A DNA stretch of 64,000 bases. It comes from Ignavibacteria bacterium (GTDB taxonomy: Bacteria > Bacteroidota > Ignavibacteria > Tepidaquicellales > OLB5). A model generated the notes under the pieces. That model saw nothing but the letters and a program-made list of their open reading frames with translations. It searched no databases and was not told the origin of the DNA. Position numbers and translations under genes: made by a program. Shown here one piece after another: positions 5,167 through 62,503 of the stretch; within the stretch, counting starts at the first letter, position 1, and each line of letters begins with the position of its first letter. The DNA lies in contig JAFLBX010000002.1 in the NCBI GenBank assembly GCA_017303675.1, positions 881,091 to 945,090 of the forward strand, read 5' to 3'.

Positions 5167-5260
5167 AATTTGTTTCCTTTTTGTTATTACTGCTCGATCC
5201 GTTTAACGGAATTATATTAATTATTTATATTAAACTTTCTCTTAATATTACTAACATGCC

Positions 5261-5371
5261 GCTCCTACGGAGCTGTGAATCAAAACAATTGCCTTACTAC
5301 AAACATTTCGCTCCTACGGAGCTGTGAATCAAAACAATTGCATTACTACAAACATACCGCTCCTACGGAGC
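5261..5371. repeat. three tandem REP palindromes GCTCCTACGGAGC
   Basis: The 13-mer GCTCCTACGGAGC (5-bp stem, TAC loop) occurs at 5261-5273, 5310-5322 and 5359-5371, at a regular 49-bp spacing. The linker is CTACAAACAT before each later palindrome and GTGAATCAAAACAATTG after. The same palindrome flanks the RAYT transposase at 38.8-39.4 kb, which makes these its likely non-autonomous copies. Confidence 0.85.
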
Positions 5372-5399
5372 TATGGATCAAAAAAAATTGTAATCTACA

Positions 5400-5545
5400 A
5401 AAAAACCTAAAACTCCAACCTGAAACATGCAACCTGCAACTTGTAACCTCCAACCTGACACTTGCAACCTGTAACCTCCAACCTGCAACCTCCAACCTGA
5501 AACCTGAAACCTGACACCTCCAACCTGACACCTGCAACCTGAATC
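5400..5545. repeat. AACCTGCAACCTCC minisatellite
   Basis: About 145 bp are built from degenerate 7- and 14-bp units such as AACCTGC, AACCTCC and AACCTGA in tandem, on one strand. The array sits immediately downstream of ileS (stop at 5546). Related units occur near 47.53-47.62 kb and 50.15-50.22 kb. Open frames through it are low-complexity and not credible genes. Confidence 0.8.
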
Positions 5546-8500
5546 CTACCCCACCTTCTCAACCGAGACCCGGCAGTTCCTGCCGTTGATATTCAGCTCT
5601 TCAGAGCGGTTCATCTTATCCGCAGCGGCTTCATTTACTGATTCAGCCATTGTCTGCTCTGATATATACTTTTTCTGCCCGGTAATTATGCTGCTAAGCT
5701 CCTTATCAGCAAGGAAGCTTATCTTTACGCGGTCATTTACATCCATATCCCTTTCCTTGCGGATATTCTGCACCTTGCTAACAAACTCACGCGCAATGCC
5801 CTCGCTCACAAGCTCTTCATCAAGCTTGGTATCCAGCGCAACCGTCAGGTTATCCTGTGATTCTATCACCCAGCCTTCGATGTTTTCTGTCTGAATAAGC
5901 AGGTCATCCATGGTGAAATCATACCCGCCGTAGGCTGTTTTGCCATTGGCAATGACTTCATTTATATTTTCCTGCGGAAGCTCTACTGCAAGCTGCGCCA
6001 CCTTCTTCACATCCTTGCCGTACTTGGGACCCGCAACCTTAAAGTTCAGCTTTGCTGAACGCCTGATAAGGCTTGAATCCTTTTCTATGAACTTAAGCTC
6101 TTTAATATTTATTTCCTCAAGGATAATATCCTTCATCGTTTCTATTGCTTCGCGCTCTGTATCATTGGTTATTGCAATAAGTATCTGCCTGAGCGGCTGG
6201 CGTGTTTTCAGGTCATTTTTCACGCGCATGAATCTGGCAAGTGATACTATCTTCTTGGCAAGATCCATATTATAGTTCAGCTCTGCGTCAATATTTTCAC
6301 TGTTTTCCGCAATATAACTTAAATGAACCGATTCCGCTTCAGTCAAATTACGGTAAAGCTTCTCTGTTATAAACGGCGCTATTGGAGATACAAGCTGCAG
6401 CAAACCGGTTAACACTTCATACAATGTGCCGTAGGCTGCTTGCCTGTCAGCATCGCCATCAGGCTGGCGGAAACGTTTCCTGTTGCGGCGCACATACCAG
6501 TTTGAAAGGTCATCAATTGCGAAATCACTTAGCACCCTCACAGCCTTGGTTATCTGGTAACCATCCATCAGGTCTATGTAAATAGATTTTGCCTTCTCGA
6601 ATGCTGAAATTATCCAGCGGTCAATTTCAGGCCTTTCGTTTACAGGCACGGAATTCTTTTCAAGCTCAGCGCGTGAAACGCCAAGCAGGTTGCAGTAAAG
6701 AACAAAGAACCTGTAAGTGTTAATTACAGTATCAAAGAACTTATTGCGCACCTCAACCATATCTTCTTCGTTGAACATCTTGGGACGCCAAACAGGTGAG
6801 GAGCTTATCAGGTACCAGCGCAGTATATCAGCGCCGTACTTATCCATTATTTCAAACGGGTTAACAACGTTACCCACGTGTTTAGACATCTTCCTGCCGT
6901 CTTTATCCAGTATAAGGTCATTCACAATCAAATTCTTATACGCTTTATCACCGAAAATAAAAGTACCTATAGCGTGCAGGCTGTAGAACCATCCCCTTGT
7001 CTGGTCAACGCCTTCGGCGATAAAATCAGCGGGATAGTTGCGCTCGAACAATTCCTTATTTTCAAACGGGTAATGATGCTGCGCAAACGGCATGGAGCCT
7101 GAATCATACCATGCATCTATAACTTCAGTAACGCGCGTCATTTCAACGCCGTATTTTTCTGACTTAATTTTAATCCTGTCTATGAACGGTTTATGCAGGT
7201 CAAGCTCAGTGCCTGCGGGATAAACTTCATCATAGTTCACGGCTTTAGCCTTGAGCTCTTCTATGGAGCCGATCGCTTCATAAACCATTTTGCCGTCAAC
7301 TTCTGCGCCCCATATAGGCAGCGGAGTTCCCCAGTACCTGTCACGTGAGAGCGCCCAGTCGCGGTTCTCTTCAAGCCAGTTGCCAAAACGCCCCGTGCCG
7401 GTTTCCGGCGGGAACCAGTTAATTTCATTGTTAAGCTTTATCATTTTATCCTTGTAGCTGGGTGTGTTGATGTACCAGCTTTCACGGGCATAATAAAGCA
7501 ATGGACTGTGGCAGCGCCAGCAGTGCGGGTATGAGTGAACGAACTTTTCTTTTTTGTAAAGCTTTTTTTCTTCCTTAAGCTTTAATATAATATCATCATC
7601 GGCTTCTTTTACAAACCTGCCCGCAAAATCCGTGACTTCGCTTGTGAACTTACCGCTTTTATCAACAGGCTGCATTATCGGCAGGCCGTATTTGCGCGAG
7701 ACCTGGTAATCATCTTCACCAAATGCGGGAGCAATATGTACAATACCCGAGCCGTCTTCTGTAGATACAAAATCACCAAGCGTTACATAAAACGCCTTCT
7801 TTTCGGGATCAGGCTTAACATACGGCATAAGCTGTTCATACTCCACGCGCTCAAGCTCACTGCCCGGCACTTCACCCAGCACTTCGTAATCTTCCTTTAT
7901 TACGGCAAGGCGCTCTTTGGCTAAAATTATTTTTTCGCCAGTTTCTTTAAACTGAATTTTAGCGTAGGTAATTTTGGGTCCAACCGCAAGCGCAACGTTG
8001 GATATCAGTGTCCATGGTGTAGTAGTCCACACAAGGAAGCTGAAACCATCGTAACCCTGGCCATCTTTTATTTTGAATGTAACGTAAACACTCGGATCCT
8101 TTACATCTTCATAACCCTGCGCCACTTCGTGGGTAGAAAGAGGCGTTTCGCATCTCGGGCAGTAAGGCTGTATCTTATAACCGCGGTAAATAAGCTCCGC
8201 ATCGAAGAATTTTTTAAGCGACCACCAAACTGATTCTATATATTCATTCTTATATGTGATGTACGCATCTTTCAGGTTCACCCAGTAACCCATGCGCTCG
8301 GTAAGCTCTTCCCAATCCTTGAGGTATTTGAACACGGAATCACGGCATGCCTTGTTGAACTTTTCAACGCCAAGCTTTTCGATATCATCCTTTGACTTTA
8401 TGCCGAGCGTTTTTTCAACTTCAATTTCAACCGGAAGCCCCTGGGTATCCCATCCCGCTTTGCGGTAAACCTGGTGACCCGTTAATGTTTTGTAGCGGCA

Positions 8501-8704
8501 GATAAGATCTTTTATTGCGCGCGCTATTACGTGGTGAATTCCGGGTTTGCCGTTTGCTGTGGGCGGACCCTCATAGAATGTGAATGATGGTTTCCCATCG
8601 CGGGTTGATATACTTTTGGAAAAGATATCATTACTTTTCCAGTAAGATATAACTTCTTTTTCTAATTGAGACTGATCTATTTTATCGGGTAATTCTTTAA
8701 ACAT
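5546..8704 (-). CDS. ileS: isoleucyl-tRNA synthetase
   Basis: It charges tRNA-Ile with isoleucine in the cytoplasm. The 1052-residue length fits the long, eukaryote-like/Bacteroidota IleS type. The HIGH-class motif appears as PGIHH at residues 54-58, and the KMSKS motif as KMSKH at about residue 600. Between them lies the CP1 editing domain with WTTTPWTLISN near residue 230. The anticodon-binding domain begins around residue 700 (NWYVRRNRKRFR). The gene stands alone; upstream is a G-C-rich hairpin (8713-8731) and then the repeat field. No T-box is seen. Confidence 0.97.
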   Translation of the reverse strand: MFKELPDKIDQSQLEKEVISYWKSNDIFSKSISTRDGKPSFTFYEGPPTANGKPGIHHVIARAIKDLICRYKTLTGHQVYRKAGWDTQGLPVEIEVEKTLGIKSKDDIEKLGVEKFNKACRDSVFKYLKDWEELTERMGYWVNLKDAYITYKNEYIESVWWSLKKFFDAELIYRGYKIQPYCPRCETPLSTHEVAQGYEDVKDPSVYVTFKIKDGQGYDGFSFLVWTTTPWTLISNVALAVGPKITYAKIQFKETGEKIILAKERLAVIKEDYEVLGEVPGSELERVEYEQLMPYVKPDPEKKAFYVTLGDFVSTEDGSGIVHIAPAFGEDDYQVSRKYGLPIMQPVDKSGKFTSEVTDFAGRFVKEADDDIILKLKEEKKLYKKEKFVHSYPHCWRCHSPLLYYARESWYINTPSYKDKMIKLNNEINWFPPETGTGRFGNWLEENRDWALSRDRYWGTPLPIWGAEVDGKMVYEAIGSIEELKAKAVNYDEVYPAGTELDLHKPFIDRIKIKSEKYGVEMTRVTEVIDAWYDSGSMPFAQHHYPFENKELFERNYPADFIAEGVDQTRGWFYSLHAIGTFIFGDKAYKNLIVNDLILDKDGRKMSKHVGNVVNPFEIMDKYGADILRWYLISSSPVWRPKMFNEEDMVEVRNKFFDTVINTYRFFVLYCNLLGVSRAELEKNSVPVNERPEIDRWIISAFEKAKSIYIDLMDGYQITKAVRVLSDFAIDDLSNWYVRRNRKRFRQPDGDADRQAAYGTLYEVLTGLLQLVSPIAPFITEKLYRNLTEAESVHLSYIAENSENIDAELNYNMDLAKKIVSLARFMRVKNDLKTRQPLRQILIAITNDTEREAIETMKDIILEEINIKELKFIEKDSSLIRRSAKLNFKVAGPKYGKDVKKVAQLAVELPQENINEVIANGKTAYGGYDFTMDDLLIQTENIEGWVIESQDNLTVALDTKLDEELVSEGIAREFVSKVQNIRKERDMDVNDRVKISFLADKELSSIITGQKKYISEQTMAESVNEAAADKMNRSEELNINGRNCRVSVEKVG

Positions 8705-8888
8705 ATTTTTTTCCCCTGCGCAAGCGGGGGTCTCTGTTACATATTAATAAAAAGTTATATTAGGGCAGCAACTATCAATGCAACCCATTGTTAAATAGCA
8801 ACTTAAAACTAAAATAAACTTAAATATAGTGTAATTTTAAGGTATTTACAATGATTAATATAGTGATGAAAAAGAACAAACTAAGCAA
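8705..8888. other. ileS leader with short hairpin
   Basis: CCCCTGCGCAAGCGGGGG at about 8714-8731 is a short GC-rich stem that resembles dispersed intergenic palindromes. Nothing else is recognised up to the first repeat fragment. Confidence 0.4.
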
Positions 8889-8995
8889 ACCCCCATTTCA
8901 AATTAAACATGGATTTTGTTTTCGTGTGATCAAAATTATTACCAAACTTGCGGATTTTTATCCCCCCTTTGCTAAAGGGGGGACTATATTCAGAA
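8889..8995. repeat. fragment of the 650-bp repeat
   Basis: The stretch starting AAACCCCCATTTCAAATT and continuing through ATGGATTTTGTTTTCGTGTG matches the beginnings of the two long repeat copies at about 9131 and 9778. It diverges after roughly 60-70 bp. The stretch TCCCCCCTTTGCTAAAGGGGG downstream is a separate short palindrome. Confidence 0.75.
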
Positions 8996-9130
8996 TTCAT
9001 TTTAAAATTAAAATTTATCATAATTTACCCGTTACGATAATTTTTGATGGGGGTTGTTTTTCGCGCGCGCCTCATACTTTGGCACCATTATAATCTGAGA
9101 CGACCCGGTGGGTCCTCTCTACAGAAACAA

Positions 9131-9777
9131 ACCCCGATTGGAAATTAAACATGGATTTTGTTTTCGTGTGATCAAAATTAAAACTAATATTACGGATTTT
9201 TCTCACCCGCCCCCCGAGAAACTGCGGCGGCAGTTTCATCCCGAAGGGACTCCTTTGGAGAGATGTATTGTAATGTGGTCAGCTCAATCCATCACGTGCG
9301 ATACCTACGGCATCGATAACAACTAATAGCATTTGGCTATAAACATGCAATCCCTACGGGATTGATTATATTAAGCTTTTTCTTTTGACCACAGAGTGGT
9401 CAAACGTTTATAGCAATTGAGATAGGAAAGCATACGACACCAGCGGTGTCGAACGTGAAAAGATCCCTCCCCTTTTCCAATCGTTAGAATTCTAATATTA
9501 ATTCATTTTGAAAGGTTGACCGATTAGAATGGGCATTACAGCACAGAATTGCAGGAATTCCAGCCGATGGGGATCTTTGCCGCAATCGCTGAATCGCTGG
9601 AATTACACAGCTACAACCCAAAACCGGCCCCGCCGGTAAATTGAACAATTTTGCTGCCATACTTTAAATTTAATTAATAAAGGATATTTATACGAATTTA
9701 AGCCTATCCGCTGTATGCTGATTGCATACATTTGTAATATAATATATGCGTTTTGAATATGCAAGTCCTGATGGCAA
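9131..9777. repeat. 650-bp non-coding tandem repeat, copy A
   Basis: This copy matches the next ~650 bp almost base for base. It contains four small palindromic units: a degenerate one near 9300 (GATACCTACGGCATC), ATCCCTACGGGAT at 9350-9362, ACCACAGAGTGGT at 9388-9400 and ACACCAGCGGTGT at 9437-9449. The last three share a 5-bp stem with a 3-nt loop. Its first 100 bp also carry an inverted repeat around GAAACTGCGGCGGCAGTTTC. Open frames here are short and inconsistent between copies, so I call no gene. Confidence 0.9.
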
Positions 9778-10427
9778 ACCCCCATTGCAAATTATACATG
9801 GATTTTGTTTTCGTGTGATCAAAATTAAAACCAATATTACGGATTTTTCTCCCCGCCGCCTCCCGAGAAACTGCGGCAGCAGTTTCGTCCCGAAGGGGCT
9901 CCTTCGTAGGGGGTGAGGTGTAATGTGGACAGCTCAACCCTTCACGTGCGATACCTACGGCATCGATAACAACTAATAGCATTTAGCTATAAACATGCAA
10001 TCCCTACGGGATTGATTATATTAAGCTTTTTCTTTTGACCACAGAGTGGTCAAACGTTTATAGCAAATGAGATAAAAAAGCATACGACACCAGCGGTGTC
10101 GAACGTGAATAGATCCATCCCCCCTTCCCAATCGTTAGAATTCTAATATTAATTCATTTTGAAAGGTTGACCGATTAGAATGGGCATTACAGCACAGAAT
10201 TGCAGGAATTCCAGCCGATGGGGATATTTGCCGCAATCGCTGAATCGCTGGAATTACACAGCTACAACCCAAAACCGGACCCGCCGGTAAATTGAACAAT
10301 TTTGCTGCTATATATTAAATTTAATTAATAAAGGATATTTATACGAATTTAAGCCAATCCGCTGTATGCTGATTGCATACATTTGTAATATAATATATGC
10401 GTTGTGAATATGCAAGTCCTGAAGAGA
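9778..10427. repeat. 650-bp non-coding tandem repeat, copy B
   Basis: This is the second copy, offset by 647-650 bp from the first and differing by scattered substitutions and small indels. The same palindromes recur at 10000-10012, 10038-10050 and 10087-10099. The copies agree through their whole length, including the AT-rich tail before GCAAGTCCTGA. This indicates a recent tandem duplication of a whole block, not independent insertions. Confidence 0.9.
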
Positions 10428-10757
10428 AACCCCCATCCGGGATCAACCTTTTATTAAGGTTTAAGACCGATTTAAATAAACTGCTCAATCTCAGATTTCT
10501 CCCCCTCCCGAGAAACTGGGGCAGCAGTTTCGAAGTCCCGCCTTGGCGGGATAAAGAACGAGGGGGGACAGTTTCTATGCAGCACTTACCATCAGGATTT
10601 AACTATATGAAAGATTTTGCAATAATTTTCGATGGGGGTTTGCTTTTTTGGGTAGCGGTGATGCTATTGACATAAACATTGCAATTACTTATGTTTGCTT
10701 ATTGTGATGTTGTGAAATATCGCAGTAAGTTTTAAATCACGCAAAAAAAATCGCTAG
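10428..10757. other. gene-free repeat remnant before the island
   Basis: This holds degenerate pieces of the repeat field: GAGAAACTGGGGCAGCAG near 10515, the palindrome TCCCGCCTTGGCGGGA at about 10536-10551 and TTTTCGATGGGGGTTTGC near 10627, which also occurs near 9040. No gene is supported; an open frame across 10397-10675 is made of repeat sequence. Confidence 0.6.
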
Positions 10758-10797
10758 AGGCTTGACCCGTTTAATAAACGGGCAAGCCTTTTTTTGT
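10758..10797 (+). terminator. strong hairpin plus T-tract, left copy
   Basis: GGCTTG-A-CCCGTTTA pairs with TAAACGGG-CAAGCC and is followed by seven T's, a textbook intrinsic terminator on the plus strand. No intact plus-strand gene precedes it. A near-identical sequence lies at 12050-12088, so together they bracket the two-gene cassette. Confidence 0.75.
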
Positions 10798-10827
10798 GGT
10801 AAAATTAAATATTTAAGGAGAAAATTA

Positions 10828-11328
10828 ATGACAATTGATGATGATCATCTATACCATGGAGCTGCTTTGATTCAAATTGCGGAAGACAAGCATTTTACAG
10901 CAATTAACTCGATGACCTATAAAAATATTATTTATAGGAGTGCTTATAGAGTAAATACTAAAATCGGTGTTTATTTTAAGTATGCATCTAAACCACATTA
11001 CAAACATAAAGAGTATTTATTTACTTTTATGAGCAATAATCTAAGAGAACTTGAAAAAATTAGAAAAGTTACTCCTAAACTATTTATTGCACTAATCTGC
11101 GTAAAAGGAAAACAAATATGTCTTATTTCTTATAAAGAATTACAAGAAATGATTAAAATAAGAGAAAACACACTTGGGAAAAGCGAAAATCAATATACTG
11201 TGCTAGTTAATCTGCCCAAAGGAAGCAGTTTTAGGGCATACATAAATTATCCCGGTCAGAAAAATACATACTTAGGTAAACAACTAATTGTGAGTAGAAA
11301 TGATTTTCCTAAAAAAATTTTCAAATAG
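10828..11328 (+). CDS. hypothetical protein of the first island cassette
   Basis: I cannot name this family. The 166-residue product starts MTIDDDHLYHGAALIQIAED. The ATG at 10828 is preceded by AAGGAG at good spacing, so an in-frame start further upstream, inside the terminator hairpin, is rejected. Residues 1-80 form a compact pattern (KHFTAINS, YRVNTKIGVYFKY, EYLFTFMS) typical of a small alpha/beta domain. Later residues include LFIALICVKGKQICLISYKE, which reads as two adjacent strands. No signal peptide or membrane helix is seen. The gene precedes the zinc-ribbon gene by 15 bp and has the AT-rich codon use of the whole island. Confidence 0.7.
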   Translation: MTIDDDHLYHGAALIQIAEDKHFTAINSMTYKNIIYRSAYRVNTKIGVYFKYASKPHYKHKEYLFTFMSNNLRELEKIRKVTPKLFIALICVKGKQICLISYKELQEMIKIRENTLGKSENQYTVLVNLPKGSSFRAYINYPGQKNTYLGKQLIVSRNDFPKKIFK

Positions 11329-11343
11329 AATTGGTTAATTAAT

Positions 11344-12009
11344 ATGCCAGTACCCACACATGATAGAACTTGTTTCACAAGAGCTTTTGAAACTAAATGT
11401 CCAGATTGCAATGAAGATGTTTGGTTCTTCTCATGTACTTGCGGCAGCAAAGTATATTTTGATGCTCTTGGATGGCCGTGGCCCATACATATTTGCAGAT
11501 ACAAAATACTTCGGGATGCAATCTCTACATTAAAAATAGTTGATCGTATGACTGACGAAGAAATTTACCATAAAATTGAAACATTCGGCAGAGACAACAA
11601 TTTAGAGGTTACGGATCAAATTTCTGAAATGTTAGAATTTGAATTAGGTAAACGAAAATATCCATTCAAAAAGATAACAATTGATGATTTGAGTCTAGAA
11701 ACTGATATAAGCGGTAAAGTAATGAATATAAATAAACAAGTAAGCTTTAAAAAAAGATTATCAATTGATATTCATAATCCAATTGCATTTGCAATGTCAA
11801 AAAATCTTTTAAATCGAATTTATTACGAAATTACTATTAGAGAAAATCCTAACAAGAAAAATGAAAGCAGAGAGTTTGTTGTATATATCGATGAATCAAA
11901 TTTTAAAAAATCACCGATAGCAATAAGCGCAATTATTATAGCAAATATTAAGAAAATTGCGACGCCGTTAGCTGATTTATGGGAAATAACGACATATAAC
12001 TGTTACTAA
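11344..12009 (+). CDS. zinc-ribbon protein of the first island cassette
   Basis: The 221-residue protein begins with a cysteine-rich module: C19-x2-C22, C31-x-C33 and then H49-x-C51, within the motif FFSCTCGSKVYFDALGWPWP. This is a probable structural zinc site. The rest, from residue 60 on, is a mixed alpha/beta region with no recognised motif. It is 15 bp downstream of the preceding gene and ends about 40 bp before a terminator. The two genes therefore form a closed unit with a probable shared role. A nucleic-acid-binding role is plausible from the zinc module but unproven. Confidence 0.7.
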   Translation: MPVPTHDRTCFTRAFETKCPDCNEDVWFFSCTCGSKVYFDALGWPWPIHICRYKILRDAISTLKIVDRMTDEEIYHKIETFGRDNNLEVTDQISEMLEFELGKRKYPFKKITIDDLSLETDISGKVMNINKQVSFKKRLSIDIHNPIAFAMSKNLLNRIYYEITIRENPNKKNESREFVVYIDESNFKKSPIAISAIIIANIKKIATPLADLWEITTYNCY

Positions 12010-12049
12010 AAAATATGTATCATAAATTAAATCATACAAATTCAGAAAG

Positions 12050-12088
12050 CCCGACCCGTTGAATAAACGGGACAAGCCTTTTTTTGTT
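12050..12088 (+). terminator. hairpin plus T-tract, right copy
   Basis: GACCCGTTGAATAAACGGG followed by ACAAGCCTTTTTTT closes the two-gene cassette. It matches the left hairpin (10758-10797) apart from one substitution, one inserted base and changes in the outer stem. The inner stem CCCGTT/AACGGG is intact. Confidence 0.8.
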
Positions 12089-12183
12089 GAGAATTTCAAC
12101 AAAAACATTTTTTAAATGTCAATTTTAGATAGTAAACAACAAAAAAAAAATAATATATTATAAATCAATAATAAATTACCAAA

Positions 12184-13281
12184 ATGGCAAATTGTTATAT
12201 ATGTGAAACAGAGTTAAATAAAGATAATTCAAGCAATGAACATATTATTCTAAATGCTTGTGGTGGACGATTAACTTCAAATGATCTGTTATGTGTTAAA
12301 TGTAATAGTGAGATTGGAGAAAAGATAGATGCAATTCTAGCAAAACAAACAAATGATTTAGCAAATTTACTCTTAATAAAAAGACATCGAGGTGAAGCTC
12401 AATCTATAAGGGCAGAACATGTAAGTACTGGAAGGGAATTCTATTTAGAATATGGAGGAAAACCCATTGCAGTAAAACCACATATTGAAATTGAAGATAT
12501 CGAAAAAGGGAAGAAAATTTCAATTAAGGCAAGAAGCAGAAGTGAATTAAAAAAAATACTGACAGGATTGAAAAGAAACTACCCACAATTAAATGTTGAA
12601 GATGCACTGGGAAAAGCTAAACATTTCAGAGAATATTTAGATGAACCGTTAAATTTTGATACAATGATTGGTGGCTCTGATGTTTTACCATCAATTGTGA
12701 AAATTGCAATTAATTTTTATCTATTAAAAGGTGGAGACAGAAAATACATTAAAGATCTAATCCCGTATTTAAAAGGAGAATCTGAAATGAAAGTAGCTAT
12801 ATCTCATCATCCACAAGATGCAATTTATATACCAGGTGATGAAGTAAGTCATGTGTTATATATTGAAGGTAATCCAGATGAAGGCATTCTATATGCTTAC
12901 GTAGAATTATACAATGTTCATAATTTTCTAGTTTTATTAAATCAAAATTACGATGGACCAAAGATAAAGACTAACTATATATTTGATGTATTGCAAAGTG
13001 TTGAGCTTAATAGAAATGTTTATTTGGAATATGGGAAAGAATATATTCTAGAGACTTTAAAAAAAGGAGACTTAGGTAGTGTAAAATCAGTACAAAAAGC
13101 ATTTCAAAGAGTATTGAATATTGCAAAAGAACGACAATGGAATAAAAGTAAAGATGATTCAATAAAAAATGCTATGAAGAATTCATTTGAAAAATATCCC
13201 GAAGGTACACCAATCACCGAGAAAATGCTCAATGAATTCATTGATGAATTGATGAATGACATTGGACCATTGCTCCGATAA
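12184..13281 (+). CDS. HNH endonuclease, HNH_5 type
   Basis: This is a putative metal-dependent DNA endonuclease. The N-terminal domain has the HNH_5 layout: C4-x2-C7, then E19-H20, N24, GGRLTSNDLLC with C37, C40 and N41. The remaining 300 residues form an unassigned domain, mostly helical at the C-terminus. Proteins with this domain arrangement are often found next to restriction or defence genes. It stands alone in the AT-rich island, 175 bp downstream of the first cassette and 145 bp upstream of the second, with no methyltransferase nearby. Its target is unknown. Confidence 0.8.
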   Translation: MANCYICETELNKDNSSNEHIILNACGGRLTSNDLLCVKCNSEIGEKIDAILAKQTNDLANLLLIKRHRGEAQSIRAEHVSTGREFYLEYGGKPIAVKPHIEIEDIEKGKKISIKARSRSELKKILTGLKRNYPQLNVEDALGKAKHFREYLDEPLNFDTMIGGSDVLPSIVKIAINFYLLKGGDRKYIKDLIPYLKGESEMKVAISHHPQDAIYIPGDEVSHVLYIEGNPDEGILYAYVELYNVHNFLVLLNQNYDGPKIKTNYIFDVLQSVELNRNVYLEYGKEYILETLKKGDLGSVKSVQKAFQRVLNIAKERQWNKSKDDSIKNAMKNSFEKYPEGTPITEKMLNEFIDELMNDIGPLLR

Positions 13282-13426
13282 CTATTTCAGAAAAAAATTT
13301 CTATATACTCTAAGCCATAACTAATAATAAAGTTAAAGATTTTAGCAAAAAATTCTTTTATTTATAAAGAAAAAACATCAACAAATTATTATAACGTTTT
13401 AAAATCAATAAAAATGGAGATATCAA

Positions 13427-13873
13427 ATGAATTCAAAAATAGAAGTTAAATTGGGTAACTTTTCTTTTTTCGGAGAGGGCGAGGAAAAATGGGTTACCAC
13501 TCAACTAGATAAACTATTATCTAGATTATATGAATTTCAAAAGTTAAATGAAAATCTAAATGCCAAAGGAGAAGTAAATACTCAAGAGAGAAAAAAAGCA
13601 GAAAATGAGAATACGCCTTTAGCTAGTTTTTTAAAAAACAAAAATGCTACTACTAACCAAAACAGAAAATTTCTAGCAACTGCTGCATGGTTACACAATA
13701 AAGGGACAAACAAAATAACCACTTCTGATGTTAGTAAAGCACTTAAAGATTCGAATCAATCACGTTTGGGTAATGCTACTGAGTGCCTAAACCAAAACAT
13801 TAGCAAAGGATTTTGCGAAAAAGAAGGGAAGCTATTTTTTGTTACTGAGGACGGATATAACGAATTGAATTAG
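13427..13873 (+). CDS. winged-helix-like protein, first gene of the ParA/RelA-SpoT cassette
   Basis: The 148-residue product has two parts. Residues 1-36 form a short domain with the pattern IEVKLGNFSFFGEGEEKWV followed by TTQLDKLLSRL. Residues about 80-148 look like a winged helix (FLATAAWLH, ITTSDVSKAL, SRLGNATECLNQN, SKGFCEKEGKLFFVTEDG). The C-terminal part aligns with the same region of the next gene, including LGNA/FSNA and the GF/GY turn. It is probably DNA- or protein-binding; no catalytic motif is visible. The ATG follows AATGGAGATATCAA. This is the first gene of a tight plus-strand series. Confidence 0.72.
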   Translation: MNSKIEVKLGNFSFFGEGEEKWVTTQLDKLLSRLYEFQKLNENLNAKGEVNTQERKKAENENTPLASFLKNKNATTNQNRKFLATAAWLHNKGTNKITTSDVSKALKDSNQSRLGNATECLNQNISKGFCEKEGKLFFVTEDGYNELN

Positions 13874-13967
13874 AAGGTTATTTAAAGAGTGAATTATTGA
13901 TATATTATTTTAATAAATTTGAACGTAAATTCATTAAAACAGATCATTTAATTCATATTTGTACAAA

Positions 13968-14540
13968 ATGGAAGAGAAAAAAGAAATAACAAAAACTGAA
14001 GACATTGTAATCTTCAATGAGGTATTTAATAGATTAAAATCTTTAGACAAAGCTAGTATAGATAAAGTACTAAAAATGCTTATAACATATTTTGATTTTA
14101 AAGAAAATAATTCAATTTATACAGAAAAAACCTCACATTCATACATTGCATCTAATCAAAATAGCTTATTTTCAGAAGACAGGACTATTGGACCAAAGCA
14201 GTTTATTCTAGAAAAGAATCCGTCAACCGATGTAGAACGTGTAGCATGTTTAGCATATTATTTAACTCATTACAGGAATCAACCGCATTTTAAAACTCTT
14301 GACATAAGTATGCTAAATACTGAAGCTGCTCAAAGGAAATTTTCTAATGCTGCTATATCTGTTGATAATGCAACTAGTAGAGGATACTTAGTACCCGTAG
14401 GTAAAGGAATGAAGCAACTTAGTGCAATTGGAGAATTGTACGTACAAGCACTTCCGGATAAGGTAACTGCTCAAGAAGTGATGTCAAAAATGAGAAAGAA
14501 GAAATCTAAAAAAAACAATAAGACAGAGAAGGTAAATTAA
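13968..14540 (+). CDS. winged-helix-like protein, second gene of the ParA/RelA-SpoT cassette
   Basis: This 190-residue protein, starting MEEKKEITKT, has an N-terminal helical segment (NEVFNRLKSLDKASIDKVLKM). A serine-rich linker follows, then a winged-helix-like region from about residue 90 (VERVACLAYYLTHYR, FKTLDISMLNTEAAQ, RKFSNAAISVDNATSRGYL, KQLSAIGELYVQALPD). The C-terminus is lysine-rich. The region is a diverged relative of the preceding gene's C-terminal half. An upstream in-frame TTG (13959) is less likely than the ATG. It ends 7 bp before the ParA gene, so co-translation with it is likely. The domain resembles adaptors I have seen in accessory loci, but I cannot name its family. Confidence 0.72.
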   Translation: MEEKKEITKTEDIVIFNEVFNRLKSLDKASIDKVLKMLITYFDFKENNSIYTEKTSHSYIASNQNSLFSEDRTIGPKQFILEKNPSTDVERVACLAYYLTHYRNQPHFKTLDISMLNTEAAQRKFSNAAISVDNATSRGYLVPVGKGMKQLSAIGELYVQALPDKVTAQEVMSKMRKKKSKKNNKTEKVN

Positions 14541-14547
14541 TAATTAT

Positions 14548-15552
14548 ATGCCTGAGAATACTTCTGTAATTACAAAAAGAATAGTTTTATATAATCATAA
14601 GGGCGGTGTTGGCAAAACAATCATTACTGCCAATTTGGCTTATATGTTAGCTCAAAAAGGTAAAAAGGTTTTAATTGTAGATTCTGATCCCCAAACGAAT
14701 ATATCTGCATATTTTCTAGAGGAAAATGTACTTGACAATTATTTAGATAACTCTGATAACGATAGTGGAAGAACAATTTGGTCTGCAGTAAGACCTATTG
14801 TACAAGCAGAAGGTGATATTAATATAATTGAACCTTTAGAAACCAATCAAGAAAATTTATTTATTATACCAGGAGATATTAGGCTATCAGAATTTGAAAT
14901 TAAATTAACAGATTACTGGCGTGAATGTTTTGAAAGAAAAATAACTGGTTATAGAGGTACAAATGCATTAAGTAATTTAATAACTAATATTTCAAGCTCG
15001 GGAAATTTTCATTATGTATTATATGATGTAGGCCCTAATATAGGCCCATTAAATCGTTCTGTTTTATTAGACTGTGACTATTTTATAATACCAGCAGCTA
15101 GTGATTTGTTTTCGAAACGTGCCTTGAAAACTTTAGGTGTAACTTTAAGTAGATGGATAAGTGATTGGCAAGTTATATTATCTCTTGCGCCTCAAAATAT
15201 TGATATGATGTTAGGATTCCCCCGCTATTTGGGATACTTACCCCAAGGTTACAAAATCTACCGTGGTGTAATATCGTCTCCAGCGAGTAGTTATGTTTCT
15301 CAAATAGAGAGAGATATTAGCGAGCATGTTTTAACCTTATTGAGAGAAATTAATGAAAATCTCGCTCCATCAACATCGACTGGTTCAAGAATAGGTGAAA
15401 TCAAGGATTTCACTCAAATTGTTGCTCTTGGTCAACAGGAAGGTGTGCCCATATGGGAGGTAACAAAAGGAACCCCCTCACAAAAAACTATGGCTAAAGA
15501 AGCATTTGGAATTTTAGCCAATAATATTATTGAGAAAACTTCACAGGCATGA
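14548..15552 (+). CDS. ParA/MinD-type ATPase of the island
   Basis: This is a deviant-Walker P-loop ATPase of the ParA/SIMIBI class. The Walker A' motif KGGVGKT sits at residues 18-24 with both lysines, the switch I region is VDSDPQTN (D45, D47), and Walker B ends at D160 (YVLYDVGPN). The length of 334 residues includes about 80 more residues than plain ParA, between the switch regions and after residue 170. No parB gene or centromere-like repeat accompanies it, which speaks against plasmid partition. Its stop overlaps the RelA/SpoT start as ATGA (15549-15552), a translational coupling that argues for a joint function. Confidence 0.9.
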   Translation: MPENTSVITKRIVLYNHKGGVGKTIITANLAYMLAQKGKKVLIVDSDPQTNISAYFLEENVLDNYLDNSDNDSGRTIWSAVRPIVQAEGDINIIEPLETNQENLFIIPGDIRLSEFEIKLTDYWRECFERKITGYRGTNALSNLITNISSSGNFHYVLYDVGPNIGPLNRSVLLDCDYFIIPAASDLFSKRALKTLGVTLSRWISDWQVILSLAPQNIDMMLGFPRYLGYLPQGYKIYRGVISSPASSYVSQIERDISEHVLTLLREINENLAPSTSTGSRIGEIKDFTQIVALGQQEGVPIWEVTKGTPSQKTMAKEAFGILANNIIEKTSQA

Positions 15553-16292
15553 AATTAGAAGATAAAATTAAACTGATGGAGGCTACCTATGTCGAAAATA
15601 AGACAGCTATCGATAAGTTATTAGCAGTATACGATGATAAAAAGTCCATGCTCAAAAGGCATGGAGAAAACATCTTTGGACTTTTGAGCAAGAGTGATGA
15701 ATTAAAACCATTAATACATTCGGTTAGATACAGACTAAAAGATAAGGATCATTTTAAAGATAAGTTAATAAGAAAAGCTATAGAAAATAATGATGCTGGT
15801 GCAAAATTTGATATTACACCTGAAAATCTTTTCCAAAGAATTCAAGATCTAGTTGGAGTAAGGATATTGCACATACATTCTGATCAAATAACAGATATTT
15901 TAAATGTAGTGAAATATCTTTTAGGAGAAGACAGTTATAAAATTATTGAAGAACCAATTGCAAGCATATGGGATTTAGAGTATAAAGATTATTATGAGGA
16001 ACGAAACATAAAAGTCATAGAACGAAAAAAGATGTATACTAGTATACATCTGATAATTTCTTCTTATAACAGAGATAATACACCAATAGAGCTACAAATT
16101 AGGACGTTAGCGGAGGAATTATGGGGTGAAGTTTCACATACAGTAAATTATCCTCATGAAACTTCAAGAAAAATTCTTCAAGATCAATTGGCAATTCTTG
16201 CAAGAATTACGTCTGCAAGTACAAGGCTTGTTGATACTATTTTTAAGATAAATAAAGAACACACCCCTCCTCCAACTGAGAAGGATAATTAA
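15549..16292 (+). CDS. RelA/SpoT-domain nucleotidyltransferase (possible toxic small alarmone synthetase)
   Basis: A single RelA/SpoT synthetase domain is seen, with no hydrolase, TGS or ACT domain. Catalytic features are present: a basic ATP-site stretch (RYRLKDKDHFKDKLIRK, residues 60-76), DLVGVRI with D100, the G-loop MYTSIHL with Y163, and ELQIRT with E181 followed by EELWGEVSH. It is therefore probably active. Known single-domain relatives make (p)ppGpp or ppApp, or pyrophosphorylate tRNA CCA ends as toxins. Which reaction applies here is not readable. The start overlaps the ParA gene by 4 bp. No terminator is seen after it. Confidence 0.88.
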   Translation: MKLEDKIKLMEATYVENKTAIDKLLAVYDDKKSMLKRHGENIFGLLSKSDELKPLIHSVRYRLKDKDHFKDKLIRKAIENNDAGAKFDITPENLFQRIQDLVGVRILHIHSDQITDILNVVKYLLGEDSYKIIEEPIASIWDLEYKDYYEERNIKVIERKKMYTSIHLIISSYNRDNTPIELQIRTLAEELWGEVSHTVNYPHETSRKILQDQLAILARITSASTRLVDTIFKINKEHTPPPTEKDN

Positions 16293-16357: not shown

Positions 16358-16434
16358 TCACACCTCGCACACAAACACGCCATCGGGTATGGTGCCTAGG
16401 TTTTGCAGCGAGCTGAATCCGACGTTTGCAATAA
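16358..16434. repeat. duplicated 3' end of hom
   Basis: These 77 bp match the last 77 bp of hom (16568-16644) with about five mismatches, on the same strand and 210 bp apart. Read on the minus strand, the copy still encodes IANVGFSSLQNLGTIPDG and the rest of the C-terminus in frame with a TGA stop. It sits just beyond the end of the island and could be a recombination or integration scar. Confidence 0.85.
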
Positions 16435-16439
16435 TTGAC

Positions 16440-16567: not shown

Positions 16568-18241
16568 TCACACCTCGCACACAAACACACCATCGGGTAT
16601 GGCGGCCAGGCTTTGCAGCGAGCTGAATCCGACGTTTGCAATTATGTAATTGCCTTTTCGTGATGTGTATTCTTCCTCGATGCTTTGCAGGTCCAGCCGG
16701 TCTAAAAAATCGCGGGCGTTACCTGAATCATGGCCATCATGTGAATCCCGGTACCGTATGTACAGCCTGATGTTGAAATCGCTTTCGAGGAAGCGGTGGT
16801 CCCGGGAGAAGTCGGGAGAAACCGTCTTCGCAGAGTCTCCTGAAAGGGACTCTGCGAATGAATTGCTTATATTTACCGCAGAGTCCTCTTTGAGAGACTC
16901 TACGGGAACGTGTGAAGAAACAGTTTGGATAGAAAAATCCGTATGGAGGATATTTTCACCATTCTGCAATTGAGATCCCCGCCTACACGGGGATAAATTT
17001 CTCTTCGCAAGCTTTTTATACCCGTACTTATAATCGTATGTGATGGCTGATATATCTGAGAGCACGGCGGAGCCTGTCGGGTGGCTGCCTGCGCCTTTAC
17101 CCACAAAGAGCTGCTTATCGCTATATACTCCTTCCACTTCAATTCCGTTGAACTCGTAATTAATATTGCTTAAGGGCCTATCCCTGCTGATAAACCGCGG
17201 CAGCACATATGCGCGATAGCCGCCATTATCTTTTGCGATACCTGCAACAAGCTTTATGCGGCAGTTATTCTGCGCCGCGTAATTGATATCAAAGGGCGTT
17301 ATGTTCTGTATGCCTGATGAGTAGATGTATTCAGGCTTAATGATAACACCGAAGGCATGCGCGGCAAGCAGGCAAAGCTTGTACTTTGCGTCTGTGCCGT
17401 TAACATCAAGGGCGGGGTCAGCCTCGGCAAAGCCCGCAAGCTGCGCTTGCTTTAGGGCATCATGGTAGGTAAGCTTATCCAGCTCCATTTTGCTGAGTAT
17501 ATAGTTACTCGAGCCGTTTAGTATCCCGCGAACGGAGCTTAAGAGCTCGTTATCGTAATACTCCTCGAGCGTGCGTATTATGGGTATGCTTCCGGCGCAG
17601 GCGGCTTCATACAGCAGCGATGCCCCCGTTTGCTGCTGCAGGCTGTAAAGCAGCTCAAAGTTTTCGGCGAGCACTTTTTTGCCTGCGGTCACAACATTGC
17701 GCCCGCTGAGCAGCGAGCTTGTGATAATTTCCAGCGCCGCATCAGCATCGCTGGTAAGCTCAACCACCAGGTTATGCTCACCGGAGTCCAGCACTTCGTG
17801 CCTGCTGAACGTGAAGTGTTCACGGGCTATACTTCGTGGTTTTGTTTTATCCTTCACGCATATTTTGCCTATTTCGGCTTTTAAGCCCTGTGAGTGGTTC
17901 AGCACGTCGTATAGCCCCTGCCCCACACACCCGAAGCCGAAGAGCCCGATATTGAGGGATTTAACCTCACCCCCTAGCCCCCTCCCCGAAATGGGGAGGG
18001 GGAAATGGACCCCAGAATTAACAGGTTTTGCACCCCTCTCCTTTGGAGAGGGGTCGGGGGTGAGGTCGTTGGATACTGCGTTCCCAAGCGGAAGCTTGGG
18101 AACGAGAGGGATGGTGGTGTGAGAAGCACGAGCCACTTTCATGTTGTCAGATATTATATTAACGACACTTTTGGCTTCCACAGAAACAACTTCACTACTA
18201 GATTCCTGCTTTCGCAGGAATGACAAAGAGGACTTACTCAT
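16568..18241 (-). CDS. hom: homoserine dehydrogenase with repeat-derived insertions
   Basis: It reduces aspartate semialdehyde to homoserine for methionine and threonine synthesis. The NAD-binding motif GFGCVGQG is at residues 102-109, and the catalytic core has YEAACAGSIPIIRTL and GILNGSSNYILSKM. Residues 1-93 are not homologous to the family: they read SFLRKQESS, VPKLPLGNA, LTPDPSPKERG and PISGRGLGGEV, which are translated dispersed palindromic repeats. A second insertion (about residues 414-489) overlaps palindromes at 16829-16856, 16877-16904 and 16975-16994. The start ATG overlaps the metB stop as ATGA, which supports the long N-terminus. The frame is open throughout. Confidence 0.88.
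   Translation of the reverse strand: MSKSSLSFLRKQESSSEVVSVEAKSVVNIISDNMKVARASHTTIPLVPKLPLGNAVSNDLTPDPSPKERGAKPVNSGVHFPLPISGRGLGGEVKSLNIGLFGFGCVGQGLYDVLNHSQGLKAEIGKICVKDKTKPRSIAREHFTFSRHEVLDSGEHNLVVELTSDADAALEIITSSLLSGRNVVTAGKKVLAENFELLYSLQQQTGASLLYEAACAGSIPIIRTLEEYYDNELLSSVRGILNGSSNYILSKMELDKLTYHDALKQAQLAGFAEADPALDVNGTDAKYKLCLLAAHAFGVIIKPEYIYSSGIQNITPFDINYAAQNNCRIKLVAGIAKDNGGYRAYVLPRFISRDRPLSNINYEFNGIEVEGVYSDKQLFVGKGAGSHPTGSAVLSDISAITYDYKYGYKKLAKRNLSPCRRGSQLQNGENILHTDFSIQTVSSHVPVESLKEDSAVNISNSFAESLSGDSAKTVSPDFSRDHRFLESDFNIRLYIRYRDSHDGHDSGNARDFLDRLDLQSIEEEYTSRKGNYIIANVGFSSLQSLAAIPDGVFVCEV
16829..16994. repeat. palindromes inside the hom coding sequence
   Basis: Two copies of a CGCAGAGTC...GACTCT palindrome (16829-16856 and 16877-16904) and ATCCCCGCCTACACGGGGAT (16975-16994) lie in frame within the hom reading frame. 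They encode most of the extra segment between the catalytic and C-terminal regulatory parts. Confidence 0.8.
17962..18104. repeat. dispersed repeats inside the hom 5' region
   Basis: The palindrome CGTTCCCAAGC-GGAA-GCTTGGGAACG (18079-18104) and CTCC-rich palindromes at about 17977-18001 and 18034-18053 (CTCTCCTTTGGAGAG) sit within the reading frame of hom, upstream of its NAD-binding motif. Confidence 0.8.
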
Positions 18242-19890: not shown

Positions 19891-19977
19891 GTCACTTGTA
19901 ATGTGACTTATATATTTAAAAGAACTGTTTAAATAATTTGTGATACAAAGATAATATAAAAGAAACATTAATGTCAA

Positions 19978-20075
19978 ACGAGAAACGTGAAATGTCAAAC
20001 GTGAAACGTGAAATGTCAAACGTGAAACGTGAAATGGTATTTGCTATTTGTTATTTGGTATTTGAAATTTGGTAT
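19978..20075. repeat. short tandem repeats AAACGTGAAATGTC and TATTTG
   Basis: About four degenerate copies of a 13-14-bp unit AAACGTGAAATGTC are followed by units of the type GTATTTGxTATTTG. The stretch is non-coding and lies upstream of the first desaturase gene. Similar simple repeats occur near 62.44-62.50 kb. Confidence 0.75.
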
Positions 20076-20197: not shown

Positions 20198-20989
20198 ATG
20201 GTTATTATCATCTTTTTTATAATTCAGTGGTACACTTCAATATTTTCACAAACCTTTCTTCAGCACAGATACGCTGCACACCGTGCGTTTAAAATGAACA
20301 AATTCTGGGAACGATTTTTTTATGTATTCGCCTTTATAACACAGGGCGCCACATATATGTCACCGCGCGCATACGCGCTGATGCACAGGATGCATCATGC
20401 ATACGCTGATACGCCAAAGGACCCTCACTCACCTTCCAATCATAAAAATCTTTTCGCAATGATGGAAAATACACGCAAAATGTACACTGCCTGTTACTGG
20501 GAAAATATTGAAATTGAGCCCCGCTTTAAGAAAGATGTACCTGACTGGCCGTGGTTCGATAGCTGGGCGGATTCACGCTGGGTTAAAGTATTATGGATCG
20601 CAGCATATATTGCATTCTATGTTATATTCGCAACAGCCTGGTGGCAATTCCTGCTGCTGCCGATATCGATCCTTATGAATCCGGCTCATGCGGTAATTGT
20701 GAACTGGTTCGGCCATAAAATTGGCTACAGGAATTATGAGCTTAAAAATACATCAACAAATCTGTACCCGTTTGATTTTATTTTCCTCGGTGAGTCATAC
20801 CATAACGATCATCACAGGAATCCCGCAAGCATAAAAATGGGCGTAAGATGGTTTGAAATTGATATCACATATTATATTATTCTTGCATTCAGCAAGCTTG
20901 GAATTGTAACGCTGCAGAATAATGCCCATAAAGTCCAGCATGAAAAAGACCTTGATCTAGCTTCGAGCATAATAAGGGATAAGGTTTAG
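20198..20989 (+). CDS. acyl-CoA/acyl-lipid desaturase, first copy
   Basis: This is a membrane di-iron desaturase that introduces a double bond into fatty acyl chains. All three histidine boxes are present: HRYAAH at about residue 23, HRMHHAY near 67 and HNDHHRNP near 208, plus NWFGH around 169. Two membrane-spanning pairs are expected; the hydrophobic segments at 1-20 and 133-165 are visible. The length of 263 residues is somewhat short for the family, with the N-terminus beginning within the first membrane helix. It is followed 80 bp later by a close paralogue. No redox partner gene is adjacent. Confidence 0.88.
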   Translation: MVIIIFFIIQWYTSIFSQTFLQHRYAAHRAFKMNKFWERFFYVFAFITQGATYMSPRAYALMHRMHHAYADTPKDPHSPSNHKNLFAMMENTRKMYTACYWENIEIEPRFKKDVPDWPWFDSWADSRWVKVLWIAAYIAFYVIFATAWWQFLLLPISILMNPAHAVIVNWFGHKIGYRNYELKNTSTNLYPFDFIFLGESYHNDHHRNPASIKMGVRWFEIDITYYIILAFSKLGIVTLQNNAHKVQHEKDLDLASSIIRDKV

Positions 20990-21069: not shown

Positions 21070-21840
21070 ATGTTCATTCTATTTTTTATTTTTCACTGGT
21101 ACCTTGCACTGTTTTTTCAGACATTTTTTCATCACCGGTACGCATCACACCGCGCTTTTAAAATGAGCAAATTCTGGGAGCGCGTATTTTTTGTATTCGC
21201 TTATATAGCACAGGGCTCTTCATATATGTCACCGCGCGCATACGCGGTCATGCACAGGATGCATCACGCTTATACGGATACAGATAAAGACCCTCACTCA
21301 CCCCTTTTCTTTAAAAATGTGTTTTCAATGATGCGCCATACCCGCAAAATATACCAGCAGATATTCTTTAAAACTGTTGAGCCTGAAAAGCGTTTTGTGA
21401 AAGATATCCCTGACTGGCCATGGTTTGACAGGTGGACTGTAACTAAAACATCAAAGGTTGTATGGAGCTTGTTTTATATTGCGATATATGTAATATTCGC
21501 TCCATCATACTGGTATTTCCTTCTGCTGCCCATAGAAATTTTTATGGTGCCTTTCCACGGCGCAATTGTGAACTGGTTTGCCCATAAATACGGCTACAGG
21601 AACTTTGAAATGAAAAATACATCAACCAACCTGCTGCCGGTAGATGTGCTGCTGATGGGCGAAGCTTATCATAATGACCATCACAAGCACGCATCAGCCA
21701 TAAACTTCGGTGTTAAATGGTATGAAGTTGATTTTACATATTATATAATCCTGGGATTGGGCAAGCTTGGCATTATAAAGCTGAATTCCAGAAATGAAGC
21801 TGCTGAAATTGAACAGCAGGCTGCTATAAATGAAGCCTAG
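21070..21840 (+). CDS. acyl-CoA/acyl-lipid desaturase, second copy
   Basis: This is a close paralogue of the preceding gene, apparently a tandem duplication. The same histidine boxes are kept: HRYASH near residue 23, HRMHHAY near 65 and HNDHHKHA near 206, with NWFAH near 168. The two proteins align almost end to end, differing mainly in the middle and at the C-terminus. The ending EAAEIEQQAAINEA is a helical tail. Two copies may differ in chain-length or temperature response; this is speculation. Convergent genes follow, separated by a hairpin. Confidence 0.88.
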   Translation: MFILFFIFHWYLALFFQTFFHHRYASHRAFKMSKFWERVFFVFAYIAQGSSYMSPRAYAVMHRMHHAYTDTDKDPHSPLFFKNVFSMMRHTRKIYQQIFFKTVEPEKRFVKDIPDWPWFDRWTVTKTSKVVWSLFYIAIYVIFAPSYWYFLLLPIEIFMVPFHGAIVNWFAHKYGYRNFEMKNTSTNLLPVDVLLMGEAYHNDHHKHASAINFGVKWYEVDFTYYIILGLGKLGIIKLNSRNEAAEIEQQAAINEA

Positions 21841-38805: not shown

Positions 38806-38818
38806 GCTCCGTAGGAGC
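38806..38818. repeat. RAYT palindrome, upstream of transposase end
   Basis: GCTCCGTAGGAGC is a 13-bp palindrome, the complement arrangement of the unit at 39303. It lies 6 bp from the 3' end of the transposase gene. Confidence 0.85.
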
Positions 38819-38824
38819 GATATG

Positions 38825-39289
38825 TTAATCATCATAAAATTCGAAAATGTATTTTGGATCATATTCCACATTAAATTTTTCCAGCAAGCCAATATATTCT
38901 TCTCGAAAAGTCTTCTTTTTGTGATGTTCCTCCTGATTTAGAACATATTTCACAACCCTATCAATGTGCGAATGTGAATAAGAAAAAGCGCCAAATCCAT
39001 GCTGCCAATTGAATTTTCCTTTTACAAATTTCTTTTCATTTATAAAACCGGATGAAATAGATTTTACATCCCTAACAAGGTCCGAAATCTTCATATCAGG
39101 TGTAAAACCAATAAACATGTGGGTATGGTCAGACATACAATTTATTGCCAGCATTTTTTGTTTTTTGCCTTTTACTATCCCGGTGATGTATTTGTGTAAT
39201 TCCTCTTTGTGTTCTCTTTTGACCAGATTTTGTCTGCCTTTGACTGCAAAAACTATTTGAATGTAGATTTGTGAATATGAATTAGCCAT
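38825..39289 (-). CDS. REP-associated tyrosine transposase (RAYT, Y1 family)
   Basis: This is a 154-residue Y1 transposase-like protein of the IS200/IS605 superfamily. It has the HUH motif as DHTHMFIGF (histidines near residue 57), and the Y-containing helix is probably in SYSHSHIDRVVKYVLNQEEHH near 110-125. It may nick and mobilise single-stranded REP hairpins. Flanking palindromes (GCTCCGTAGGAGC on one side, GCTCCTACGGAGC twice on the other) support the assignment. No second transposase gene or terminal inverted repeats are seen, as expected for RAYTs. Confidence 0.88.
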   Translation of the reverse strand: MANSYSQIYIQIVFAVKGRQNLVKREHKEELHKYITGIVKGKKQKMLAINCMSDHTHMFIGFTPDMKISDLVRDVKSISSGFINEKKFVKGKFNWQHGFGAFSYSHSHIDRVVKYVLNQEEHHKKKTFREEYIGLLEKFNVEYDPKYIFEFYDD

Positions 39290-39302
39290 TTTTTTACATA
39301 TC

Positions 39303-39365
39303 GCTCCTACGGAGCTCTGATTTTCTTGGGTTTAACTTTCTACAAACATGGCGCTCCTACGGAGC
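39303..39365. repeat. two REP palindromes downstream of the RAYT start
   Basis: GCTCCTACGGAGC occurs at 39303-39315 and 39353-39365, 50 bp apart; the second is preceded by CTACAAACATG as at 5.3 kb. With 38806-38818 they enclose the transposase gene. Confidence 0.88.
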
Positions 39366-39597
39366 TATTTTACAATTGCTTGTCCCTTCAAATGCTAATT
39401 AGGCTATCAAACACGCTGCCTCTTCGGGGCTTCTAATTTTCAAGTGATTTTTTTCTACCTTCTCTCATTACGTTCGATAAGGCAGGCAAACATGACTTTT
39501 CTGCAGAGGGTTCTACGATTGCGATTAATTTCAGCTAACAACATTACTCTGCTATGAAGTTTGATTATCAGTATATTTCAAATGGCCAGAATCAACA
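39366..39597. other. gene-free stretch with hairpin-like fragments
   Basis: A fragment CTGCCTCTTCGGGGC near 39417-39432 resembles the genome's palindromic repeats. No gene is recognised up to the 90-residue gene at 39598. Confidence 0.4.
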
Positions 39598-49878: not shown

Positions 49879-50220
49879 GGTTTGTTTGTTTATCAATTTG
49901 CTCTTAGCGACTCCGCGACTCTGCGGTTATTTCTTTTTGCTTTTTCGCTACATCCCTCGACGGGCTCGGGATGAGGAGATTTAACTCCGTGTCTCTGTGC
50001 CTCTGTGTTAGTCTAAAAAACCTCACCCCTCCCGCGTTAAGAGAGGGGGAGAAATTGCCGGGCTTTAAAATTGCCGCAGGCTTTATCACGCGTGCAAGAG
50101 TGAAATCTTTTTCAAGTAGCAATGAACAATTAATGATGGTTATCGATTTCCTGCAACCTGCAACCTGAAACATGTAACCTGCTACCTGCAAATTGTAACC
50201 TGCAACATGAAACCTTATAC
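49879..50220. other. repeat-rich gap
   Basis: The stretch has CCTCGACGGGCTCGGGATGAG near 49956-49976, a CTCC-rich palindrome around 50025-50051, and a degenerate AACCTGCAACCTG minisatellite at 50150-50215. An apparent minus-strand frame (49904-50224) is made of these repeats, so I do not call a gene. Confidence 0.55.
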
Positions 50221-62381: not shown

Positions 62382-62442
62382 TTCAGTATATATTAATTGG
62401 TTTATGGATGATTAATTAGCTTACAATTGAAAATTAATAGTT

Positions 62443-62500: not shown

Positions 62501-62503
62501 TAG

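Follow-up and report, generated by a model that had tools for sequence, protein, structure and literature searches.

The window analysed here, a 64-kb stretch (C2:881091-945090) of a 3.65-Mb genome available as a two-contig assembly, carries two adjacent copies of a block of about 650 bp between the minus-strand gene ileS, whose start lies at 8704, and a gene starting at about 10828 (Table 1). For ileS, as for rsmG and mnmG below, the name is the one that we take to apply from the protein sequence. The alignment of copy A with copy B spans 651 columns, of which 609 are identical, 38 are substitutions and 4 are gap columns. The identity is uneven, amounting to 97.5% in a module termed unit X, 96.5% in the palindrome cluster and 82% in 9209-9290. 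Differences of this number, unequally spread, and the two-contig assembly argue against an assembly artefact, for which nothing speaks beyond the pair being a repeat and which is almost certainly not the explanation. No credible gene was found within copies A and B. Alignment and ORF check bore out what an earlier note on this DNA had described, i.e., two adjacent non-coding copies with four palindromes each in the same order. The partial copies that it placed at about 8.9 kb and 10.43-10.67 kb are real as well: 8886-8965 repeats the first 80 nt of the block with 86% identity, while 10501-10532 and 10622-10643 repeat shorter pieces of it.

Table 1. Repeat features and related genes of the window (positions are those of the window).
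Feature	Position	Strand	Remarks
Solo array of three GCTCC-type hairpins	5254..5374	+	49-nt spacing; far from any transposase gene
ileS-proximal conserved upstream region	8705..8866	-	intergenic region hypervariable in the genus beyond it
MITE-like element (CAAACCCCCAT... with inverted end ...ATGGGGGTTG)	8886..9056	+	copies A and B each begin with a repeat of its left 80 nt
Copy A of the ~650-bp block	9128..9774	+	647 nt; own-genome match 100%, A/B alignment
Q-P unit, copy A	9294..9365	+	Q hairpin 9299-9315 (A.C mismatch), CTATAA tag 9337-9342, P hairpin 9348-9364
P'-Q' unit, copy A	9385..9456	-	P' hairpin 9384-9404, tag (reverse complement) 9404-9413, Q' hairpin 9435-9451
Unit X (copy A), dispersed ~280-nt non-coding element	9488..9768	+	second copy 10139-10419
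Copy B of the ~650-bp block	9775..10425	+	651 nt; 94% identical to copy A
Q-P unit, copy B	9944..10015	+	covariance-model match C2:891034-891105
P'-Q' unit, copy B	10035..10106	-	covariance-model match C2:891125-891196
Subclass-1.2-like Y1 transposase gene (Y1_Tnp, HuH DHTH, YVLNQEEHH)	38828..39298	-	not the gene that matches the block type
Q-P unit, GCTCC type, right of the 38828-39298 gene	39296..39368	+	mirror hairpin at 38806-38818

Several other features of the window were recorded. To the right of the block, a gene island (10828-16292) encodes HNH_5, ParA-like AAA_31 and RelA_SpoT proteins among unknowns and gave weak PADLOC matches only; in the congeners G010 and G012 the gene that follows the ileS-upstream intergenic region differs from the island gene at 10828. 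Between genes lie short tandem arrays (5396-5561, 19963-20048, 50141-50222 and 62428-62509) whose periods are 7 and 14 nt and whose units are AACCTGC-, AAACGTG- and TGATATT-like. A 78-nt direct repeat (16358-16435 and 16568-16645, 92% identical) has one copy at the 3' end of the gene 16568-18241, and the adjacent paralogous desaturase-like genes at 20198-20989 and 21070-21840 represent a tandem gene duplication.

The four palindromes of each copy have 3-nt loops and occur in identical order. Three of them are perfect, namely CAATCCC/GGGATTG (7 bp), TTTGACCAC/GTGGTCAAA (9 bp) and CGACACC/GGTGTCG (7 bp), and the first, CGATACC TAC GGCATCG, contains an internal A.C mismatch. The 3-base loops proposed previously were thus correct, whereas the stems measure 7-9 bp instead of 5 bp. 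In total, the 1298 nt hold 6 perfect hairpins with stems of at least 7 bp and a 3-nt loop, whereas 500 dinucleotide shuffles gave 0.14 on average and never more than 2. The hairpins are arranged in pairs, and the two units face each other within the block, Q-P followed by P'-Q'. Folding of copy A as single-strand DNA gave z-scores of -2.9 and -5.8 for the two units and of -5.0 for the whole 163 nt. The results support the suggested REP-like character of the palindromes, their BIME-like inverted arrangement and an architecture shared by different stems.

A different outcome was obtained for the 650-bp block, which had been regarded as a composite repeat moving or recurring as a whole; a genome-wide count, set in the earlier note as the test that could refute this, located the block at one site only. 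There is no further full-length block in the 3.65-Mb genome besides the two tandem copies, and the full block was not found in the 98 other relatives searched. Pieces of it recur in the own genome (12 matches in all at E≤0.001), and any match to the block was seen in 17 of the 99 genomes searched, own included. Because the block occurs only here in the genome, the composite-repeat reading fails for the whole block. The adjacency of two full copies that share their module order would suit a true BIME-like composite repeat, moving or kept as a 650-bp whole; yet its modules recur separately and diverge unequally between the copies, as seen for unit X and 9209-9290, and with no other full copy found this reading is refuted for this genome and altogether very improbable. 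Its modules are an 80-nt left end resembling a MITE, a hairpin stretch, the cluster of palindromes (~9291-9460) and unit X. The duplicated segment also includes elements unrelated to the palindromes. Across the genus, conservation upstream of ileS extends over the first 160 bp among the closest relatives, and the region is hypervariable thereafter. At the same ileS site, G012 has a Q-P/P'-Q' cluster of ~90% identity; in G010 the site is occupied by unit X (74%) and then the MITE (68%), and in G002 by other repeats. Since copies A and B resemble each other more closely in the palindrome cluster and unit X than they resemble the modules of congeners, the duplication is specific to this lineage. 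The block breakpoints have a common motif, AAACCCC(C/G)AT, which suggests that exchange between MITE-like ends or short homologies may have produced them. We conclude that the tandem block is an ordinary local duplication, by a single event, of a mosaic intergenic region upstream of ileS.

The position of the palindromes upstream of ileS and their folding as hairpins would also agree with a function in the RNA of this region, as leader regulation or terminators. We regard this as highly improbable, given that no Rfam family fits 8700-10800 (the single match, ARRPOF, with E 0.42, is far below the gathering score), that congeners lack the cluster or have a replacement beyond the conserved 160 bp, and that the same units occur in unrelated intergenic regions.

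Observations were also made on the remaining modules. MITE-like elements with the ends CAAACCCCCAT / ATGGGGGTTTG are located at 8886-9056 and 10428-10643 and at two further loci (L052, L089), and such elements recur upstream of ileS in several congeners. The right end of unit X (9714-9765, 10365-10416) reads TATGCnnnnnGCATA, ~10-15 nt, AATATAATATATGC and then ATATGYCAAG. This pattern is also present at the own-genome loci L008, L009, L077, L078, L080, L083 and L086; with up to 2 mismatches, 17 matches were counted in the own genome vs. 7 for the reversed pattern. Three right-end matches lie 35-84 nt upstream of paralogous genes of ~300 aa with a helix-turn-helix-like N-terminus, and the one such gene tested gave no Pfam match. 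This right end could represent an operator or an element terminus.

Read outward, each hairpin consists of an AYRT tag, eight nucleotides, a 3-nt loop and another eight nucleotides. The first hairpin of a pair (Q) bears the AYRT tag, in the second (P) CTAYAA is placed before AYRT, and the loops within a Q-P pair lie ~49-50 nt apart. The stems vary between hairpin types with complementarity kept. Among 24 block-type units, 9 of 14 pairs were changed on both sides (59 cells vs. 17.6 in shuffled data). In the block-type alignment A2, 98.2% of cells were paired (at most 40.5% for slid structures) and in the alignment A4 83.2%, counts that are partly circular, as rows were picked partly for having stems, and that illustrate the pairing without proving it. 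A candidate compensatory change at the orthologous rsmG-mnmG interval was dropped: the units at the own locus (L010) and at that of G008 (L056) stand in different order, so that turnover is indistinguishable from change in place.

The heptamer CCTACGG was over-represented within the window (14 vs. 1.9 expected) and not genome-wide (78 + 61 matches vs. 94 + 85 for the reversed pattern), and hence counting of the units required a structure model. The block-type covariance model (R1) revealed 24 units in the own genome, the weakest of these matches being other hairpin types, and units in 12 of 13 congeneric genomes (G008, 42; G012, 35; G002, 21; G005, 21; G003, 13; G010, 12; G007, 11; G009, 9; G001, 8; G004, 3; G006, 1; G011, 0). 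A general model (R2) detected 49 units in the own genome; among 30 R2 loci read and typed by hand, 14 were of the block type, 10 of the GCTCC type and 6 of the ACCCC or ATCCC type. All but one of the 24 R1 units lie outside ORFs of at least 80 aa, the exception being inside a 101-aa ORF. Counted genome-wide, the palindromes thus prove to be a dispersed family, and as short palindromic units scattered between genes they belong to REP/BIME sequences in the wide sense. Inverted unit pairs were found not only as Q-P/P'-Q' in both copies but also as other + and - neighbours in the own genome.

The own genome encodes nine Y1_Tnp genes, six with a Y...Q..HH signature and three with class-2 motifs. 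The six subclass-1.2 genes encode six different proteins, 33-55% identical to the G012 query. Hairpins bracket Y...Q..HH transposase genes in mirror image, and within the window GCTCC-type units lie on either side of the gene at 38828-39298. Y1 genes bracketed by block-type hairpins occur in four congeners, G005 (L109), G012 (L110), G003 (L118) and G008 (L132), and G009 has a broken one with one in-frame TAA (L108). Genes of the block and GCTCC types carry Y[IV]xNQ..HH, and H63, H65, Y123, Q127, H130 and H131 were invariant in all 23 rows of the transposase alignment. In a tree of 32 transposases, with types assigned by hand, the five hairpin types correspond to five clades, one each, and the seven labels need 6 changes, the least possible. 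In this tree the group "Long" stands for L013, L014, L018 and L114 (longer 4-nt-loop palindromes) and also takes in L112, L120 and L121, solely because no 3-nt-loop hairpin is shown for them, and L119, the flanks of which carry other palindromes; the row L108 is a fragment of 83 residues and L116 ("other") a single row. Genes added later from the wider scan were typed by flank only, outside the tree. Palindromes at other Y1 genes of the genus (L013, L014, L018, L019, L020, L021, L114, L125-L128) are longer, with 4-nt loops, or have GACCGCTC arms, with their own sequence at each gene. The class-2 genes L019-L021 are flanked by other palindromes.

None of the nine Y1 genes of the own genome belongs to the block-type clade; the best own-genome matches to the G012 block-type protein were a GCTCC-type gene (55%) and an ACCCC-type gene (52%), and a search of the own genome up to E 10 found no decayed remnant of a block-type gene. 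With no cognate transposase gene in this genome, the block-type units here are orphans. Genomes without a detected block-type gene still carry units (24 in the own genome, 21 in G002), indicating that copy number tracks the gene only loosely. The expectation that each palindrome type has a matching RAYT was confirmed as far as a transposase exists per type, but its signature is that of subclass 1.2 and not of RAYT class 2; for the block's own type, the matching gene is present in congeners and absent here.

To cover a wider range, one genome per species was scanned with a 23-protein alignment. Among at least 588 stretches at least 567 were confirmed relatives, and the best 80 of these were kept, mostly from Bacteroidota and also from Ignavibacteria, Neomarinimicrobiota, Verrucomicrobia and Desulfonema. 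For 76 of these 80 loci from other genomes (L166, L176, L189 and L218 were too short) the flanks were examined for a GC-rich hairpin with a stem of at least 5 bp and a 3-nt loop within 250 nt of the gene. A hairpin on either side was observed in 67 of the 76 loci vs. 21.5% of 1018 control windows from the same loci, hairpins on both sides in 39 vs. 3.2%, and a same-side pair 35-75 nt apart in 53 vs. 7.5%. The distance within same-side pairs was 49-52 nt in 76 of 126 cases, and an identical 5-nt arm was found on both sides in 27 of the 76 loci vs. 1.9% of 1010 controls. With no selection for tags, CTAYAA and AT appeared where expected in the sequence preceding the hairpins, and a tagged Q-P unit was extractable from 42 of the 80 loci. 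Half-flanked loci were common: one side or both lacked a hairpin in 37 of 76, and by this definition 9 of 76 had none at all. The R2 model was run on the own genome and on 14 further genomes chosen for holding such a gene, 5 of whose 14 loci had contributed to the model, and detected units in all 14, from 2 to 146 each (counts near 150 being lower bounds, as no more than 150 candidates are scored). Outside Bacteroidota, Desulfonema magnum (G108, L213) contains long head-to-tail arrays of two-hairpin units with ~52-nt steps at C1:3025493-3028953 and 2367548-2368194.

The association between subclass-1.2-type transposases and the two-hairpin REP class is well supported by these data. An alternative is that the hairpins are subterminal ends of ordinary IS200/IS605 elements and the solo units relics of deleted IS copies. 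In line with it, the transposase profile matched solved IS200/IS605 TnpA chains (ISHp608 and others) and no TnpA-REP chain at E≤0.001, and some units have the order P'Q'-QP that a transposase locus would show after loss of its gene (L055). We nevertheless consider it unlikely: the six subclass-1.2 genes of the own genome differ from one another, while the units number 49, the flanks bear hairpin pairs rather than one hairpin, and the five types keep to five clades.

The reading that we favour, with good confidence, combines two layers, a local duplication of a ~650-bp mosaic and REP-like two-hairpin units that are probable substrates of Y1 transposases with a subclass-1.2 signature. One local event would have copied ~650 bp of the mosaic upstream of ileS. 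The Q-P units would most likely serve as single-strand DNA substrates of the Y1 (HuH) enzymes, and the dispersed units would be non-autonomous copies left by them. The transposase would recognise, bind, cleave and mobilise its units, a mechanism that we propose by analogy with TnpA-REP and IS200; signs of activity, excision or a recent insertion were not encountered. For the orphan block-type units of this genome, inheritance and copying by ordinary recombination, of which the tandem duplication is an instance, would then be the only routes left. It also seems reasonably likely that the two-hairpin unit (AYRT hairpin, ~50 nt, CTAYAA-AYRT hairpin) is a hitherto undescribed REP class that serves TnpA subclass 1.2 as its cognate substrate across Bacteroidota, Ignavibacteriota and some neighbouring groups. 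If true, subclass 1.2 would be a further REP-associated HuH system that arose apart from RAYTs, several types would coexist per genome, and orphan populations would outlive their enzyme. REP sequences with their transposases are the best-known case of domesticated bacterial transposases, and the well-studied examples rest on class-2 enzymes. If an IS200-like subclass thought to be REP-less has a REP class of its own, domestication happened more than once. Genomes with multiple types, some without an enzyme, would offer a direct handle on REP persistence and the need for the enzyme.

Comparison with known systems places the enzymes close to TnpA_Y1 subclass 1.2, which a 2018 survey describes as akin to IS200 transposases, in general lacking the typical terminal IS200 structures, and with the signature Y...Q..HH (PMC6006769). 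They have in common this signature, the HuH motif, a length of ~150 aa and an occurrence mostly in Bacteroidota; the assignment rests here on motif, length and taxon rather than on the MCL clustering of the survey authors. The difference is that the survey table lists no REP-like structure for subclass 1.2, while most loci here are hairpin-flanked (PMC6006769). In the open-access literature searched, no paper was found tying subclass-1.2 genes to REP-like units, and the association looks undescribed. GTAG/CGTC REPs and TIRtrons likewise show heterogeneous stems within a family, dimers and complementary changes, and some TIRs are double palindromes (PMC3733652). Read on the other strand, P ends in RTAG, a further likeness, yet this is no tag at the 5' foot: RTAG occurs nowhere but at the far side of the hairpin, away from the foot. 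CGTC repeats differ in stems of 8-9 bp, loops of 4-5 nt and no transposase (PMC3733652). With IS200/IS605 elements the units share a HuH Y1 transposase and hairpins on both sides; however, no mobile, multi-copy element carrying tnpA was seen here, as no subclass-1.2 gene of the own genome copies another, the solo units far outnumber the genes, and the hairpins are paired. A parallel in organisation is offered by REP/BIME/REPIN sequences with RAYTs (REPtrons), likewise short palindromes dispersed between genes and set in inverted orientation; each type also brackets its own kind of Y1 transposase gene, the palindrome type matching the enzyme. In contrast to REPtrons, the block-type and GCTCC-type genes lack the class-2 Y...NP signature and combine Y...Q..HH with an IS200-like profile, and the unit is made of two hairpins ~50 nt apart with AYRT/CTAYAA tags and 3-nt loops instead of a GTAG-footed single hairpin.
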